Source: Marinosulfonomonas sp. PRT-SC04 (GTDB lineage: Bacteria; Pseudomonadota; Alphaproteobacteria; Rhodobacterales; Rhodobacteraceae). Taken from it: a stretch of 22,306 nt of DNA. Where the stretch lies: positions 1 through 22,306 of the forward strand of contig JPUR01000224.1 in NCBI GenBank assembly GCA_001321835.1, given 5' to 3'. Each line of letters begins with the position of its first letter. Within the stretch, counting starts at the first letter, position 1. The notes below the pieces were generated by a model that was not told where the DNA came from, did not search any database, and saw only the letters and a list, made by a program, of their open reading frames with translations. Below are positions 6,360 to 17,966 of this stretch, in pieces. Made by a program: the position numbers and the translations under genes.

Positions 6360-7076
6360 ATGCCCAAACTCAAAGATTTACCGCACAAACCAGAACGCCG
6401 CAAACGCAGCTGGTTTGGCGGCTTCAGAACCAACTTTTTCACAGGGCTTGTGGTGGTCGCGCCGGTTGGCATGACCCTGTGGCTGATCTGGACCATCACC
6501 GGCAAGATCGACAGCTGGGTTTTGCCCTTCATTCCGACCACCTTCACCCTAAAACCCTACATCGGCATTGATTTACGCGGCCTAGGGGTGATCATTTTTC
6601 TGACCTTCACGGTGCTTATCGGCTGGCTGACCAAGGGCATTGTCGGCAAATCCTTGCTGCGATGGGCCGAAGAAATCGTCGACCGGATGCCGGTGGTCCG
6701 CTCAATCTACAATGGCTTAAAGCAGCTGGCCGAAACCATATTTGCACAATCAGAAACCTCCTTTGATAAGGTTTGTCTGATCGAATATCCGCGCCCTGGT
6801 ATCTGGGCGATTGCGTTTATTTCGACCACCACCAAGGGCGAAGTCAGCGATAAAATTCCGGTCAACGAGCAGATGATCTCGGTGTTTCTGCCAACCACGC
6901 CAAACCCGACCTCTGGTTTTTTGCTGTTCGTGCCAGAATCAGATCTAACAGAACTGGATATGACGGTTGGCGATGCAATGAAGCTGGTGATCTCGGCGGG
7001 GCTGGTTTATCCGGCCGATAAAAACCCCGATCAGCCCAGTTTGGCGTTGGACGATCCAAACACTGACCCTGCCTAA
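6360..7076 (+). CDS. DUF502-family inner-membrane protein
   Basis: A 238-residue protein of the DUF502 family. A basic N-terminus (KPERRKRSWFGGFRTNFFTGL) leads into one membrane helix at about residues 26-48, containing VVVAPVGMTLWLIW. A second helix lies at about 72-93. The family's conserved cytoplasmic block RMPVVRSIYNGLKQ (109-122) follows. The C-terminal half (FISTTTKGEV, VFLPTTPNPTSGFLLFVPESD) is the other conserved part. The molecular role of this family is not established. It stands alone after psuG with a 110-bp gap, and its upstream ribosome-binding site is weak. The terminator-like structure 28 nt downstream points the opposite way. Confidence 0.9.
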   Translation: MPKLKDLPHKPERRKRSWFGGFRTNFFTGLVVVAPVGMTLWLIWTITGKIDSWVLPFIPTTFTLKPYIGIDLRGLGVIIFLTFTVLIGWLTKGIVGKSLLRWAEEIVDRMPVVRSIYNGLKQLAETIFAQSETSFDKVCLIEYPRPGIWAIAFISTTTKGEVSDKIPVNEQMISVFLPTTPNPTSGFLLFVPESDLTELDMTVGDAMKLVISAGLVYPADKNPDQPSLALDDPNTDPA

Positions 7077-7103: not shown

Positions 7104-7133
7104 AAAAAAAAACGCCAGCACGAAGCTGGCGTT
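7104..7133 (-). terminator. Strong intrinsic terminator, minus strand
   Basis: AACGCCAGC and GCTGGCGTT form a 9-bp perfect stem (7111-7119 with 7125-7133). On the minus strand it is followed by a run of seven further T (7104-7110). No comparable T run exists on the plus strand. Both neighbouring protein genes are plus-strand, so the structure only makes sense for the minus-strand candidate small RNA. Confidence 0.85.
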
Positions 7134-7180
7134 AAGTTATTGAGGCAGGTTTCATACAGGCAAGAAACCTATCGAGCAGT
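7104..7180 (-). ncRNA. Candidate small RNA, about 77 nt, two hairpins
   Basis: This gene-free gap carries a complete minus-strand transcription unit. The promoter has -35 TTGGCG and -10 TATAAA 17 bp apart, predicting a start near 7180. The transcript would form a first stem, AGGUUUC with GAAACCU (complements of 7164-7170 and 7147-7153; 10-nt loop). A single-stranded linker follows, then a perfect 9-bp GC-rich stem (complements of 7125-7133 and 7111-7119, UUCGU loop), and finally a U run. No start codon with a sensible reading frame and ribosome-binding site is apparent, so it is more likely a regulatory RNA than a small mRNA. I do not recognise it as a named family. Rhodobacterales have several conserved orphan sRNAs of this size and shape. 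It is divergent from the peptide-binding-protein gene. Confidence 0.6.
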
Positions 7181-7186
7181 GAAGCC

Positions 7187-7215
7187 TTTATACCCAAACT
7201 TTACCGCCCCGCCAA
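7187..7215 (-). promoter_or_regulatory. sigma70-type promoter of the candidate small RNA
   Basis: On the minus strand TTGGCG (complement of 7210-7215) lies 17 bp from TATAAA (complement of 7187-7192). The -10 matches consensus at five of six positions. It fires away from the solute-binding-protein gene at 7295. A weak plus-strand counterpart (TTGAAC at 7225-7230, TACGTT at 7248-7253, 17-bp spacing) could serve that gene. Confidence 0.6.
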
Positions 7216-7294
7216 GCAAAAAGTTTGAACTGGCGCAATTTCCCCGTTACGTTATCAGGCAAGCTTTAAAGGAACTTGAGGGATTGTTGCTAAA

Positions 7295-9112
7295 ATGAGA
7301 TCAGTTAATTTCCAATACGTCACCGCGATGATCACTGGTATCGCCGCGATTCTAGCCACCGGATTCGCAAACGCTGCCCCCCAGCATGGCATAGCTATGT
7401 ATGGCACCCCCGCCCTACCACAGGATTTTGTGTCCCTACCCTACGCCAACCCCGACGCGCCAAAAGGTGGCCGGATTGTTCTGGGTCAGTCCGGCAGCTT
7501 TGATTCTCTGAACCCGTTGATCCTAAAAGGCCGCGCACCTTGGCAGCTCAGATACCTCGCCTACGAGAGCCTCATGGGTAGAAATTACGACGAGCCATTC
7601 TCGCTATACGGGCTTTTGGCCGAATCGGTGGAAACCGACGCGAATCGTACATGGGTTGAGTTTACCTTGCGTAAAGAGGCGCGGTTCTCGGATGGCAGCC
7701 CCGTCACCATAGAAGATGTGCTGTGGTCCTATGAAACTTTGGGCACCATTGGCCACCCGCGTTATTTGGGGACATGGGGCAAAGTCGAAAAGATGGAGGC
7801 GACAGGCCCCCATAAGATCCGCTTCACCTTCAACACCGAGGATCGCGAATTGGCGCTGATCATCGGCATGCGGCCAATCTTGAAAAAGGCGCAATGGGCC
7901 GGCAAAGATTTCGCCGCCTCATCCTTGCAAGCCCCGATCACCACCGCCCCCTATGTGATCGGTGATTTTGAGCCGGGACGTTATCTGGTGCTGGATCGCA
8001 ACCCTGACTATTGGGGCAAGGATCTGCCGTTTCGTCGTGGCACCAACAATCTGGACCAAATCCGGCTGGAGTTTTTCGCCGACAAAGGTGTGAAATTCGA
8101 GGCCTTTAAGGCTGGCGAAGTTGATCTGATGCGCGAGGCCAATGCCTCTAAGTGGGAAACGCTGTATGATTTTCCCGCGGCCCGCAGTGGTGATGTGGTC
8201 AAATCAGTGATCCCGCATCAGCGCCCAACCGGCATCAACGGGCTGGTGATGAACACCCGCAATCCGATATTTGCCGATTGGCGGGTGCGCGAGGCGTTCA
8301 TGCTGGTGTTCAATTATGAGTTTATCAGCCAGACGGTGAATGGTGCGGCCCAACCTCGGATCAGTTCGTATTTTTCAAATTCGGTTCTGGGGCTACACGC
8401 AGGCGCTGCCACGGGGCAAACGGCTGATCTTCTGGCGCCGTATGCAGCGGATCTGACCCCGGCCACGCTGACAGGTTACACCCTGCCGGTTTCAGATGGC
8501 AGCGAGCGCAATCGCAAGAATATCCGCAAGGCGATGGGGCTGTTGCTGCAGGCTGGATGGGACATTGAAAACGGTGTGATGCAGAACGCCGACGGGGTGC
8601 CATTGCGCCTTGAAATCCTGCTGAAACAGGGCGCGGGCGAGGTGCAAACCATTGTCGACATCTATGTTCAATCACTAAAACGGCTGGGCATTCAGCCCTT
8701 GGTCACCGTGGTCGACAAGGCGCAATATAAGGAGCGCACCAACAATTACGATTTCGATATGGCGCATTATACCCGTGGCATGTCGCTGTCTCCGGGCAAC
8801 GAGCAGCTGCTCTATTGGGGCGCACACGGCGTCACCCAACCCGGCACCCGCAACTGGATGGGGATGAATTCGCCCGCCGCCGAGGCGATGATTGATCATA
8901 TGGTCAATGCCGCGGACCAAGACGGCTTTCGCGCCGCCACCCGTGCGCTGGATCGGGTGCTGACGGCAGGGCGGTATGTGATCCCGTTTTGGGCGGCTGG
9001 CCCGTCGCGGATTGCTCATAAAAAATCGTTACATTTCCCTGCGGAACATCTGCCAATGTATGGAGACTGGATCGGGTTTCTGCCGGATGTCTGGTGGTTT
9101 GAAGGCGAATAA
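7295..9112 (+). CDS. ABC-type peptide/opine transporter, family-5 periplasmic substrate-binding protein (YejA-like)
   Basis: A 605-residue secreted protein with signal peptide at residues 1-27 (cleavage near FANA/APQ). The mature start HGIAMYGTPALPQDFVSLPYANPDAPKGG resembles the YejA branch of SBP_bac_5 proteins, which bind oligopeptides such as microcin C or murein peptides for ABC import. Further family features are GSFDSLNPLILKG, the ligand-gate region FTLRKEARFSDGSPVTIEDVLWSYE, and the C-terminal WMGMNSPAAEAMIDHMV. Length is typical of the YejA group. No permease or ATPase genes lie next to it, so it either works with a transporter encoded elsewhere or is an orphan. A GAGGG lies 12 nt before the ATG, longer spacing than usual; no better in-frame start is visible. 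Confidence 0.9.
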   Translation: MRSVNFQYVTAMITGIAAILATGFANAAPQHGIAMYGTPALPQDFVSLPYANPDAPKGGRIVLGQSGSFDSLNPLILKGRAPWQLRYLAYESLMGRNYDEPFSLYGLLAESVETDANRTWVEFTLRKEARFSDGSPVTIEDVLWSYETLGTIGHPRYLGTWGKVEKMEATGPHKIRFTFNTEDRELALIIGMRPILKKAQWAGKDFAASSLQAPITTAPYVIGDFEPGRYLVLDRNPDYWGKDLPFRRGTNNLDQIRLEFFADKGVKFEAFKAGEVDLMREANASKWETLYDFPAARSGDVVKSVIPHQRPTGINGLVMNTRNPIFADWRVREAFMLVFNYEFISQTVNGAAQPRISSYFSNSVLGLHAGAATGQTADLLAPYAADLTPATLTGYTLPVSDGSERNRKNIRKAMGLLLQAGWDIENGVMQNADGVPLRLEILLKQGAGEVQTIVDIYVQSLKRLGIQPLVTVVDKAQYKERTNNYDFDMAHYTRGMSLSPGNEQLLYWGAHGVTQPGTRNWMGMNSPAAEAMIDHMVNAADQDGFRAATRALDRVLTAGRYVIPFWAAGPSRIAHKKSLHFPAEHLPMYGDWIGFLPDVWWFEGE

Positions 9113-12783: not shown

Positions 12784-12827
12784 CAGCAAGGTAAATTCAG
12801 CGCCTACTTTGCCTTGCTGGCTTTTTT
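12784..12827 (+). terminator. Intrinsic terminator of the MFS gene, overlapping the mfd 3' end
   Basis: CAGCAAGGTAAA (12784-12795) pairs with TTTGCCTTGCTG (12808-12819), 12 bp including one G-U. The loop is 12 nt, and GC then six T (12822-12827) follow. The second arm and T run lie inside the mfd coding sequence on the other strand, where they encode the Lys/Ala-rich last residues (AEKKASKAK). The opposite strand lacks a T run, so it acts on rightward transcripts only. Confidence 0.75.
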
Positions 12828-15800
12828 CTCGGCAATCACTTTTTGTGCCAGATCGCGGGCGATCGCGTATGCGCCTTTGACCTTGTCAGCGGCCTTGCTC
12901 CAGTCACGCTTAATTACGATCTTGTTGCCCTTAACCTTAGCCATGCCGCGCTCGGCCTCGATGAATTCAACCAAGCCAAGGGGCGAGGCAAATTTATCAT
13001 TGTGGAACTGGATCACGGCGCCTTTAGGCCCCGCATCCAGCCGCGAAATTCCGGCGCGTTTACACATGCCTTTGATCCGAACCACCAACAGCAGTGAGTT
13101 CACTTCTTTGGGCAAGGTTCCAAAACGGTCAATCAATTCCGCCGCAAAACCTTCCAACTCGACCTTGGAATGCAAGGTGGAAAGCCGACGATACAGCCCC
13201 AAACGCACATCCAGATCCGGCACATATTTTTCTGGAATCAGCACCGGCACCCCGAGGTTAATCACCGGCGCCCATTTGCCGCCATCCTCAGGCATGCCAA
13301 TCTCGCCGGAGCGAATTTTGCCAATCGCCTCCTCCAGCATCTGTTGATACAATTCATAACCAACTTCGCGCATCTGACCTGATTGTTCCTCGCCCAGCAG
13401 GTTGCCAGCCCCACGAATATCCAGATCTTGGGACGCTAGAGTGAAGCCCGCCCCCAGCGAATCTAGGCTCGCCAACACCCGCAAACGTTTTTGCGCGGTG
13501 GCGGTGATCGGCGTGCGCGGTTTGGTGGTCATATAGGCATAGGCGCGGATTTTTGAACGACCAACCCGACCCCTGATTTGATAGAGCTGCGAGAGACCAA
13601 ACATATCGGCGCGGTGCACAATCATCGTGTTGGCTGTTGGAATATCCAAACCGGATTCAACGATGGTGGTGGCCAGCAGCACGTCATATTTACCGTCATA
13701 AAACCCGTTCATCCGCTCGTCCAGTTCGCCGGCGGCCATTTGACCATGCACCACGACATAACTGACTTCCGGCACCTGATCGGTAAGGAAAGCCTCAATT
13801 TCGGGTAAATCTTTGATGCGCGGCACCACGTAAAATGATTGCCCGCCACGGTAATGTTCACGCAATAACCCCTCGCGCAAGGTCACCCCGTCAAATTCGG
13901 AAACGTAAGTTCGAATGGCCAAACGATCCACCGGCGGGGTGCCGATGATGCTCAAATCCCGAACGCCTGACAGCGACATTTGCAAGGTGCGCGGGATCGG
14001 CGTGGCGGTTAAGGTTAACACATGCACATCAGAGCGCATTTCCTTCAGGCGTTCCTTATGGGTGACGCCAAAGCGCTGTTCCTCGTCAATCACCAGCAGG
14101 CCGAGGTTCTCGAATTTGACCGACTTGGCCAGCAACGCATGGGTGCCAATGACAATATCAACGGTGCCACGCGCCATGCCTTCGCGGGTCAGATTGGCCT
14201 CACGGGTGCTGACAAAACGCGACAGCTGGCCAATGTTGATCGGAAAACCTCGGAACCGCTCGACGAAAGATTTGAAATGCTGGCGCACCAGCAATGTGGT
14301 CGGCGCGATCACCGCCACCTGATGGCCGGACATTGCGGCGACAAAAGCGGCCCGCATTGCCACCTCGGTTTTGCCAAAGCCAACATCACCACAGATCAAA
14401 CGATCCATCGGATGACCCGAGGCCATGTCGCCCAAAACATCCTCGATCGCAGACATCTGGTCGTCGGTTTCCTGATAGGGGAACCGCGCACAAAAAGCCT
14501 CCCAAGCGTGGTGCTCAGCCTCCATCACCGTGGCGGTGCGCAAGGCCCGTTCTGCCGCCAGACGGATCAGTTTTTCCGCCACCTCGCGGATGCGTTCCTT
14601 CAGCATGGCCTTTTTCGCCTGCCAAGCACCGCCGCCTAATTTGTCCAGCAAACCCTGCTCATGACCATATTTCGACAGCAATTCGATATTTTCAACCGGC
14701 AGGAACAACCGGTCACCACCAGCATATTCCAGCGCGATACATTCATGCGCCGCCCCCATCGCGGCGATGGTCTCAAGCCCTTTGTAAACCCCGACGCCGT
14801 GGTCAACATGCACAATCAAATCGCCCACCGACAGGCTTTGGGTTTCGGTCAGAAAATTCTCGGCCCGACGTTTGCGACGCGGCCCACGGATCAGACGATC
14901 GCCCAGCACATCCTGCTCGGAAATCACCGTGATGCCATTGCCGGTAAAGCCGTGTTCCAGCGCCCAGACCACCAGGTTAAGCCCCGTGCCAATGTCGCGC
15001 ACATCCTTGATTTGGCGCAGACCAATCTGGCCTTCATCCTCCAACAAGCCGGTTAAACGTTCGCGCGCACCTTCGGAATAACTGGCGACAATCACAGGGC
15101 CGTCAGGTTTTTTTACATTAATATAGTCTGATAACTCTTTGAAAAGATTAACGTCTTGGAGCTGTCTCTCTGGTGAGAAATTGCGCCCGATCCGTCCGCC
15201 GCCATCCATCACCCCCAGTCCAGTGCTTTGGGGCAGCGGATTGAGCTGGATCACCCGATGCGGTTTGATCGCTTTGGTGAAGGCCGCGTCATTCAGATAC
15301 AAAAGCTCCGGCGGGCACGGTTTATAAACCGTATCCATCCGGTTTTTGGCCGACATCGCTTCGCGGCGGGTGTCATATTGATCGTCAATCGACTCCCAAC
15401 GCGACAGCCGCGCTGCGGTGTTTTGATCATCCATCACCAGCGAGGCATCGGGCAGATAATCAAACAGGGTTTCCAGGTTTTCGTGGAAAAATGGCAACCA
15501 ATGTTCGGCACCCTGATGTTTGCGCCCCGCAGAAACCGCCTCATAGAGCGGATCATCAAAGCCCGCCGCGCCAAACTCAACGCGGTAGTTTTGCCGAAAC
15601 CGCGCAATCGCCGCCTCGTCCATGATGATTTCCGACACGGGCGCCAGCTCGACACGGGTCAGTTTTTCGGTGGTGCGCTGGGTGGCAGGGTCAAAATGCC
15701 GTGCGCCGTCCAGCACATCGCCAAACAGATCAAGCCGCACCGGACCACCTTTGCCGCCTGTCGACAGCGGTGGATAGATATCGATAATACCGCCGCGAAT

Positions 15801-16268
15801 GGCAAAATCGCCAGGCTCCGTCACGGTCGGCGTGTTCACAAACCCCATGCGGGACAAAAAGCTGCGCAATGCAACCTCGTCAATCCGCTCGCCGACTGTG
15901 GCCCGAAAAGCTGACTGTTTCAAAATGTCGCGGGCCGGCAGCCGTTGGGTGACCGCATTCAGGGTGGTCAACAGGATGAACGGGGTCGGCAGCCCATGCG
16001 CCAGCGCCGCCAATGTGGCCATCCGTGCGGCCGAAACATCCGGGTTTGGCGAGGTCCGGTCAAACGGCAAACAGTCCCACGCCGGAAACTGCAGCACCAC
16101 CGCATCAGGTGCGTAGAATTTCAGCGCCGCCTGCATCGCCACCAGTCGTTTGTCATCACGGGCGATATGCACCACGGGCTGTCCGGTCCTGGCCAACTCT
16201 TGGGCCAGAATATGCGCATCAAAACCTTCGGGCACGCCGCCATAGGTTATGTGATCGGGTTTGGCCAT
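12804..16268 (-). CDS. mfd: Transcription-repair coupling factor Mfd
   Basis: A 1154-residue ATP-dependent DNA translocase that removes RNA polymerase stalled at lesions and recruits UvrA for nucleotide excision repair. Domains in order: UvrB-like N-terminal modules (about 1-340), the RNA-polymerase-interacting domain around VGDLIVHVDHGVGVYKG (481-497), RecA-like lobe 1 with Walker A GDVGFGKTEV (628-637), the DEEQ box (728-731) and motif III TATPIPRTL (754-762). Lobe 2 carries TTIVESGLDIPTANT (867-881) and the QIRGRVGRS segment (897-905). The translocation (TRG) region and a C-terminal TRCF domain of about 150 residues follow. Length is typical and no domain is missing. AGGGGA precedes the ATG. 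It lies 50 nt after the small membrane-protein gene and is probably co-transcribed with it. Confidence 0.97.
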   Translation of the reverse strand: MAKPDHITYGGVPEGFDAHILAQELARTGQPVVHIARDDKRLVAMQAALKFYAPDAVVLQFPAWDCLPFDRTSPNPDVSAARMATLAALAHGLPTPFILLTTLNAVTQRLPARDILKQSAFRATVGERIDEVALRSFLSRMGFVNTPTVTEPGDFAIRGGIIDIYPPLSTGGKGGPVRLDLFGDVLDGARHFDPATQRTTEKLTRVELAPVSEIIMDEAAIARFRQNYRVEFGAAGFDDPLYEAVSAGRKHQGAEHWLPFFHENLETLFDYLPDASLVMDDQNTAARLSRWESIDDQYDTRREAMSAKNRMDTVYKPCPPELLYLNDAAFTKAIKPHRVIQLNPLPQSTGLGVMDGGGRIGRNFSPERQLQDVNLFKELSDYINVKKPDGPVIVASYSEGARERLTGLLEDEGQIGLRQIKDVRDIGTGLNLVVWALEHGFTGNGITVISEQDVLGDRLIRGPRRKRRAENFLTETQSLSVGDLIVHVDHGVGVYKGLETIAAMGAAHECIALEYAGGDRLFLPVENIELLSKYGHEQGLLDKLGGGAWQAKKAMLKERIREVAEKLIRLAAERALRTATVMEAEHHAWEAFCARFPYQETDDQMSAIEDVLGDMASGHPMDRLICGDVGFGKTEVAMRAAFVAAMSGHQVAVIAPTTLLVRQHFKSFVERFRGFPINIGQLSRFVSTREANLTREGMARGTVDIVIGTHALLAKSVKFENLGLLVIDEEQRFGVTHKERLKEMRSDVHVLTLTATPIPRTLQMSLSGVRDLSIIGTPPVDRLAIRTYVSEFDGVTLREGLLREHYRGGQSFYVVPRIKDLPEIEAFLTDQVPEVSYVVVHGQMAAGELDERMNGFYDGKYDVLLATTIVESGLDIPTANTMIVHRADMFGLSQLYQIRGRVGRSKIRAYAYMTTKPRTPITATAQKRLRVLASLDSLGAGFTLASQDLDIRGAGNLLGEEQSGQMREVGYELYQQMLEEAIGKIRSGEIGMPEDGGKWAPVINLGVPVLIPEKYVPDLDVRLGLYRRLSTLHSKVELEGFAAELIDRFGTLPKEVNSLLLVVRIKGMCKRAGISRLDAGPKGAVIQFHNDKFASPLGLVEFIEAERGMAKVKGNKIVIKRDWSKAADKVKGAYAIARDLAQKVIAEKKASKAK

Positions 16269-16912: not shown

Positions 16913-16940
16913 TTGAGATGATTGAAAATCCATGTATCCA
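16913..16940 (+). promoter_or_regulatory. Possible hemB promoter
   Basis: TTGAGA (16913-16918) and TATCCA (16935-16940) are 16 bp apart, placing transcription start near 16947 and the hemB ATG at 16968 about 20 nt downstream. The match is moderate. If correct, it rules out the alternative in-frame ATG at 16932, which would lie upstream of the transcript start. Confidence 0.3.
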
Positions 16941-16967
16941 GTAGGCAGCCAAAGAGAAAGTGTGAAT

Positions 16968-17966
<999 letters not shown>

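Follow-up and report, generated by a model that had tools for sequence, protein, structure and literature searches.

We describe a small RNA (sRNA) gene in a stretch of 22,306 nucleotides from Marinosulfonomonas sp. PRT-SC04 (hereafter, the window) that is very probably real and previously unclassified. Its conserved partner is very probably the 5' leader of the dcw division cluster, together with UpsM, the sRNA released from that leader. The gene, its conservation across Rhodobacterales, and the specificity and position of its complementarity to the leader can all be read from genome sequences, and on this basis the predicted pairing of the sRNA with the dcw leader is well supported.

A small RNA gene on the minus strand

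The original prediction had placed a promoter, a hairpin, a linker and a terminator in this order on the minus strand, and had read them as a stand-alone RNA of about 77 nt transcribed from its own promoter. All of these elements are present in the sequence and backed by conservation. Their positions in the window are as follows:

7210..7215, minus strand: −35 element TTGGCG (consensus TTGGA), from sequence and conservation
7187..7192, minus strand: −10 element TATAAA, from sequence and conservation
7180, minus strand: predicted start of the sRNA, the A of ACUGCUCG
7104..7180, minus strand: sRNA transcript, 77 nt, from the predicted start at 7180 to a 3' end inside the U run
7140..7180, minus strand: sRNA core, nt 1-41, nearly invariant (157 loci; 112 distinct sequences)
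7147..7170, minus strand: hairpin 1, AGGUUUC(UUGCCUGUAU)GAAACCU, 7 bp with a 10-nt loop; by folding, arms at 7170-7164 and 7153-7147 and loop at 7163-7154
7111..7133, minus strand: intrinsic terminator stem-loop with a 9-bp stem, after which the U run reaches 7104

The −35 (7215-7210) and −10 (7192-7187) elements are separated by a spacer of 17 bp, and the promoter can be written in its conserved form as CTTGGA-N17-TATAA. A promoter scan under a strict rule retrieved no promoter, the sRNA promoter included (1.1 expected), so the consensus match by itself is no proof. For the 77-nt RNA, the predicted fold has an energy of -24.8 kcal/mol (z = -4.5), a value equalled by none of 200 shuffles, and its terminator ranks best among the 5 terminator-like sites in the 1.6 kb scanned (2.2 expected).

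We regard the unit as real because conservation sets in at the predicted start, the −10 and −35 elements are conserved and the terminator covaries; a stand-alone minus-strand RNA remains the best reading of this region. Its sequence has the features of an Hfq-type trans-acting sRNA, namely its own promoter, an intrinsic terminator with a U tail, and an unpaired conserved seed; the RNA is predicted to be expressed and to depend on Hfq. A small peptide, MKPASIT, encoded within the sRNA was considered and rejected, since non-triplet indels follow the core in other species.

Conservation and phylogenetic distribution

A covariance model retrieved one sRNA match per genome in 121 of 121 genomes of the order Rhodobacterales, and BLAST found one apiece in 146 of 149 family genomes. 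A search with DUF502, the gene that flanks the sRNA in the window, returned seven loci, five from Rhodobacterales and two from Verrucomicrobiota, and all five Rhodobacterales genomes carry the sRNA. The resulting alignment comprises 157 loci: 146 from the family, the locus of the window itself, one from a Paracoccus plasmid record, four from additional genomes, and five duplicates; seven loci with no match, two from Verrucomicrobiota and five secondary hits, were left out.

Across the 157 aligned loci, the near-invariant 41 nt begin exactly at the predicted start of the sRNA, and upstream of it the TATA of the −10 element and the CTTGG of the −35 element are conserved. Among the 112 distinct sequences, 7 of the 8 counted pairs of the terminator stem have undergone compensatory changes, and the U run is kept. 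For the whole structure, the covariation score is 0.179 versus a shuffle mean of 0.048, and none of 500 shuffles reaches 0.179. Six of the seven pairs of hairpin 1 never vary among the same 112 sequences, and this invariant stem therefore offers no compensatory changes. Compensatory changes in both stems had been named as evidence that would support the unit, and the outcome is partly as hoped: the terminator displays them and the first stem does not.

Beyond the order, a class-level search of 385 genomes produced 5 strong matches, each from a genome that also belongs to the order set, and 15 further class genomes with scores of 26-31 bits that look like chance. Plasmid records matched only in four Paracoccus entries, and the phage records searched gave no match. 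Three family genomes were found to lack the sRNA (G138, G038 and G152), and a close intact orthologue of the neighbouring peptide-binding-protein (SBP) gene was seen in none of them. In G138, an SBP piece of ~45 residues at 64% and a dcw leader carrying the antisense site described below (site A) with one mismatch suggest that the missing sRNA reflects an assembly gap; G038 retains just the core of site A, and G152 gave no usable mraZ.

The original prediction could not place the sRNA in a named family, and Rfam supplies none. The Rfam 15 search of the window returned no family at the gathering threshold, and that of the corresponding region in R. sphaeroides numbering (L350) returned no match. 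The highest sub-threshold score for the sRNA was 23.9 bits, for SpF41 (threshold 52).

An antisense match to the dcw leader

The loop and the linker had been proposed as pairing regions, and this now appears likely in view of an extended complementarity to the leader of the dcw cluster. A 1.2-Mb target scan of one genome (G050, with 942 crudely called genes) pointed to this cluster. Secondary search hits had already coincided with a stretch antisense to nt 20-38 of the sRNA, a place that in G002 lies upstream of mraZ. The sRNA segments concerned are:

7145..7162, minus strand: sRNA nt 19-36 (loop, 3' arm and linker), antisense to dcw-leader site A, GCAGGUUUCAUACAGGCA
7173..7179, minus strand: sRNA nt 2-8 (CUGCUCG), complementary to leader site B (CGAGCAG)

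Site A, whose consensus is given above, is located in the dcw 5' leader, ~200 nt ahead of mraZ, and is conserved amid variable leader sequence. We compared each sRNA core with the leader of its own genome in 60 mraZ-upstream regions. Thirty of these came from an even draw of 32 genomes, 31 of which matched and 30 of which yielded a locus; 29 came from a chosen set of 30 genomes that included variant-core genomes, two StsR genomes and three known site carriers, and the last from G050. A Watson-Crick run of 9 pairs or more was present in 57 of the 60 (1 for shuffled and 4 for reversed leaders); 44 reach 12 pairs and 27 reach 16, lengths attained by no shuffled or reversed leader. The three leaders with no 9-pair run belong to G005, G064 and G013, and in G034 the longest run falls outside site A. 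Leaders bearing indels mostly retain two blocks, GAGGCAGG and CAUACAGGC, and the R. sphaeroides site A has one mismatch to the sRNA.

Over 59 leaders (G024 was excluded because a contig end cuts its leader), the predicted duplex energy averages -43.3 kcal/mol with a mean z of -4.5, single genomes ranging from -6.5 to -1.8 (the weakest being G034). Net of unfolding, pairing averages -20.6 kcal/mol in the 46 leaders with an exact CATACAGGC.

Compensatory evidence for the interaction is mixed. Changes that seemed promising by eye were put to a swap test in five genomes variant in sRNA nt 19-36, where the genome's own sRNA outperformed the consensus sRNA in G005 and G107, lost in G064 and G034, and fell short by 0.2 kcal/mol in G020. 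With support in two of five genomes, we rejected these changes as compensatory proof of pairing. Outside this count are G022, which has no leader, and G035, which varies outside the region and whose site was missed by the test window.

A second contact, between the 5' end of the sRNA and site B, is suggestive only. The motif CGAGCAG occurs between -260 and -60 of the mraZ leader in 43 of the 60 genomes, and in predicted duplexes it lies ~50 nt downstream of site A; some genomes lack it, and the part of the leader around it is structured and conserved, so that its conservation may have a different cause. We also observed that the leader region GCGAGCAGACATCCCCCCAGGTGGCGCGC (e.g., in L337 and L286) is strongly conserved beyond the needs of site B and may have another ligand or partner.

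Specificity of the match

In the G050 scan, which covered 1.2 of 3.29 Mb, the dcw leader ranked first both in a comparison of the regions upstream of all 942 called genes and among 19,996 windows (-47.3 versus a mean of -27.4, sd 4.0). At up to one mismatch, the 16-mer CAGGTTTCATACAGGC was found in 61 of 61 order genomes and its reversed control in none. At least two copies were present in 46 of these genomes (three copies in 6 of them) and one copy in 15; of these copies, the 30 for which a locus was returned consisted of 19 sRNA genes and 11 mraZ leaders.

The Shine-Dalgarno sequence of mraZ, GAGGCAGG, was considered as a second target and set aside, as it was seen in G050 and was not evident in the leaders inspected. 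As a separate observation, short seeds of the sRNA also match the start regions of four dcw-cluster genes in G050 (L281), which we take to be mraZ, ftsL, ddl and ftsA.

Leader structure and the RNase E cut

For R. sphaeroides, a dcw 5' UTR of 268 nt has been reported, from which termination releases UpsM, an sRNA of 206 nt; RNase E, together with Hfq, converts UpsM to a 130-nt fragment, and the same study describes a long dcw leader across Rhodobacteraceae (PMC5089854). We found the sRNA SorY at 1,632,645 in genome G056, and its published position in R. sphaeroides 2.4.1 is 1,632,642 (PMC6238624); on the strength of this agreement, G056 was taken to follow the 2.4.1 numbering. The relevant positions in G056 are:

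1,444,071 to 1,443,996, minus strand: the sRNA, with its start at 1,444,071
694,904: mraZ
694,689-694,705: site A

The RNase E cut in the leader, published at 694,720 (PMC6238624), falls ~15 nt downstream of site A in this numbering. In the folding model, a long-range leader helix would enclose site A in its loop, immediately before its 3' strand, and the cut would lie at the helix 3' end. The two strands of this helix differ among species yet match each other: own strands average -17.8 versus -12.5 kcal/mol for swapped strands, and own beat swapped in 40 of the 44 leaders with an exact CATACAGGC. For R. sphaeroides, the model predicts that binding of the sRNA leaves the strand of the helix that follows site A much more open. 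Across species, the modelled unpaired fraction of the cut region changes little on average, from 0.44 to 0.49 (up in 14 and down in 2 of 46), in a model that permits no pseudoknots and therefore cannot decide the matter.

Comparison with known RNAs

A close functional parallel is StsR (formerly RSs0827), a short sRNA ending in a terminator. It is reported to base-pair with both UpsM and the dcw 5' UTR, thereby promoting cleavage by RNase E (PMC8307010). The window sRNA would likewise pair with the dcw leader, as judged by complementarity alone, but at a different site: the best predicted leader site for StsR, calculated using an approximate 5' end for that RNA, begins 142 nt upstream of mraZ. 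The StsR Northern probe sequence, taken from PMC11354728, places StsR at 858,073 in G056, 586 kb from the window sRNA at 1,444,071. At up to one mismatch, the probe was found in only 2 of 394 family genomes (L316 and L317), so that StsR looks lineage-restricted or fast-evolving. Identity of the two RNAs was rejected: in both genomes holding the probe complement the loci are separate, and the sequences at the StsR loci do not resemble the window sRNA, which probably acts on the same leader as StsR. UpsM (RSs0682), for its part, is the dcw 5' leader holding site A; it is the proposed partner and not the window sRNA.

Other comparisons concern architecture. The GcvB and AbcR sRNAs have pyrimidine-rich single-stranded pairing regions and regulate the binding proteins of ABC transporters. 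The window sRNA resembles them in having such regions, but its deeply conserved site is the division-cluster leader, and its pairing with the adjacent SBP mRNA, which would be expected of a GcvB/AbcR-like RNA, does not exceed that of shuffled sequences in 107 loci (see below). Similarly, alignments of the Rhodobacter sRNAs SorX (RF02784) and SorY (RF02651) display a 5' hairpin, a pyrimidine-rich linker and a terminator; the window sRNA, however, scores 18.8 bits against a gathering threshold of 46.6 for SorX and 18.7 bits against 111 for SorY, and other targets have been reported for both (PMC8307010).

In P. denitrificans, 'Intergenic 134' and 'Intergenic 60' are reported as expressed RNAs of 80-84 nt with homologues across Rhodobacteraceae (PMC5107571), and one of them may be the window sRNA. 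We discarded an assignment of the R. sphaeroides RNA to RSs1368, a guess by locus-number interpolation whose term was not found in the literature searched. That literature, limited to freely available papers, yielded no report of a second UpsM-binding sRNA; given this scope, the window sRNA itself may have been detected before, for instance in the 2009 R. sphaeroides sRNA list.

Proposed mechanism and the sponge alternative

We consider it likely that the window encodes a trans-acting base-pairing sRNA that pairs with the dcw leader and UpsM and thereby tunes RNase E processing. In this mechanism, the loop, the hairpin 3' arm and the adjoining linker (nt 19-36) would act as one contiguous antisense to site A. 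The first contact is probably made by the exposed loop and linker, from where pairing would invade the sRNA hairpin, and the 5' end, CUGCUCG, may add a second contact at site B. Once bound at site A, the sRNA would open the cut region and alter RNase E processing, and altered processing would shift the amounts of UpsM and dcw mRNA. We infer the physical pairing, the effect on RNase E and the direction of that effect from the complementarity and leader models described above. A point against this mechanism is that UpsM cleavage in R. sphaeroides already has a reported cause in StsR, which depends on RpoHI/II (PMC8307010).

The main rival to the RNase E mechanism reverses the roles of the two RNAs: UpsM, very abundant in exponential phase, would titrate the sRNA through site A, and the true targets would be other mRNAs reached through shorter seeds, such as the anti-Shine-Dalgarno-like CCUGCCUC. 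We regard this sponge model as possible, though rather unlikely. A near-perfect match of 17-18 nt would suit a sponge as well as a target, and UpsM is described as the most abundant sRNA, accounting for ~60% of Hfq-bound sRNA (PMC5089854). Several G050 genes have ribosome sites of the GAGGCAGG type to which the linker is complementary. At the 0.5, 1 and 5% quantiles, its best energies surpass those of each of six scrambled linkers, although scrambling the linker also destroys its anti-Shine-Dalgarno character. The 5' and loop seeds, by contrast, were indistinct from scrambled seeds in the one partial genome analyzed, and the extended site appeared nowhere else among the 30 loci returned.

The divergent peptide-binding-protein gene

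The sRNA had also been noted to be divergent from a peptide-binding-protein gene, an arrangement of back-to-back promoters that conservation supports. The features on this side of the argument are:

6360..7076, plus strand: DUF502 gene, which flanks the sRNA in the window; context only
7212..7229, no strand assigned: conserved box, consensus CCAAGCTAAAAGTTTGAA, formed by two back-to-back −35 elements of the divergent promoters
7225..7253, plus strand: predicted SBP promoter, TTGAAC, 17 bp, TACGTT, read from the sequence, with TA...T conserved
7295..9112, plus strand: SBP_bac_5 peptide-binding-protein gene, the usual divergent neighbour of the sRNA

The SBP gene adjoins the sRNA divergently in 149 of the 157 loci, and the distance from the sRNA start to the SBP start codon is 112-115 nt in 107 of these 149; TTGAAC/TACGTT is its probable promoter. 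The DUF502 neighbourhood is incidental: elsewhere its distance ranges from 27 nt to over 2 kb, or the gene is on the opposite side or not seen within the fetched flank. At up to one mismatch, the box CCAAGCTAAAAGTTTGAA occurs in 26 of 41 genomes, always in single copy and beside the sRNA (a reversed-pattern control gave 1 hit); with one occurrence per genome no regulon emerged, and its role as a regulon operator was rejected.

Such a conserved arrangement invites the reading that the sRNA is primarily a local regulator of the SBP gene, which we consider improbable. Over the 107 loci, the SBP start region pairs with the sRNA no better than mononucleotide-shuffled sequences do (-22.0 versus -22.2 kcal/mol), and we therefore rejected it as a target. 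An SBP hit is absent beside the sRNA in 8 of the 157 loci; a contig end accounts for three of them (L003 and L011, from one genome, and L113), whereas the other five (L058, L093, L099, L148 and L161) are not at a contig end and keep the sRNA core intact. An apparent 8-nt match, CAGGCAAG, in the SBP leader of the window was also dropped, as L002, read by eye, does not share it. That the region is instead a DNA-level element or an untranscribed relic with incidental hairpins is barely credible, since only a transcribed unit would be expected to retain its U run while the terminator stem changes in a compensatory way, and to show conservation beginning at the predicted start.

Some further observations were made in this neighbourhood. 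The motif GGGATTGTTGCCAAAATG runs into the SBP start codon (7280-7297 in the window) and is conserved in the 107 start-aligned loci. Two Marinosulfonomonas MAGs (L001 and L004) carry ~1 kb between DUF502 and the sRNA that is absent in the window and contains, as read by eye, at least one small glycine-rich ORF. The window also holds two housekeeping genes above the NCBIfam cut-off, mfd (12804-16268, minus strand) and hemB, encoding porphobilinogen synthase (16932-17966, plus strand).

Implications for division control in Rhodobacterales

The unusual length of the dcw leader in Rhodobacteraceae, and its shedding of the abundant UpsM, have so far been only partly explained. An order-wide sRNA antisense to this leader offers a concrete trans-acting partner for it, and one that probably helps to set the amount of division machinery made. 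Tentatively, and with less confidence than for the RNase E mechanism itself, we suggest an ancestral, order-wide division switch. By docking in the dcw leader loop, the sRNA would set how RNase E processes that leader and thereby dcw expression, its supply would be tied to a promoter region shared with a peptide-uptake gene, and StsR would be a later, stress-driven input in the R. sphaeroides lineage. With one interaction predicted to the nucleotide, control through the dcw leader becomes testable in any model roseobacter.
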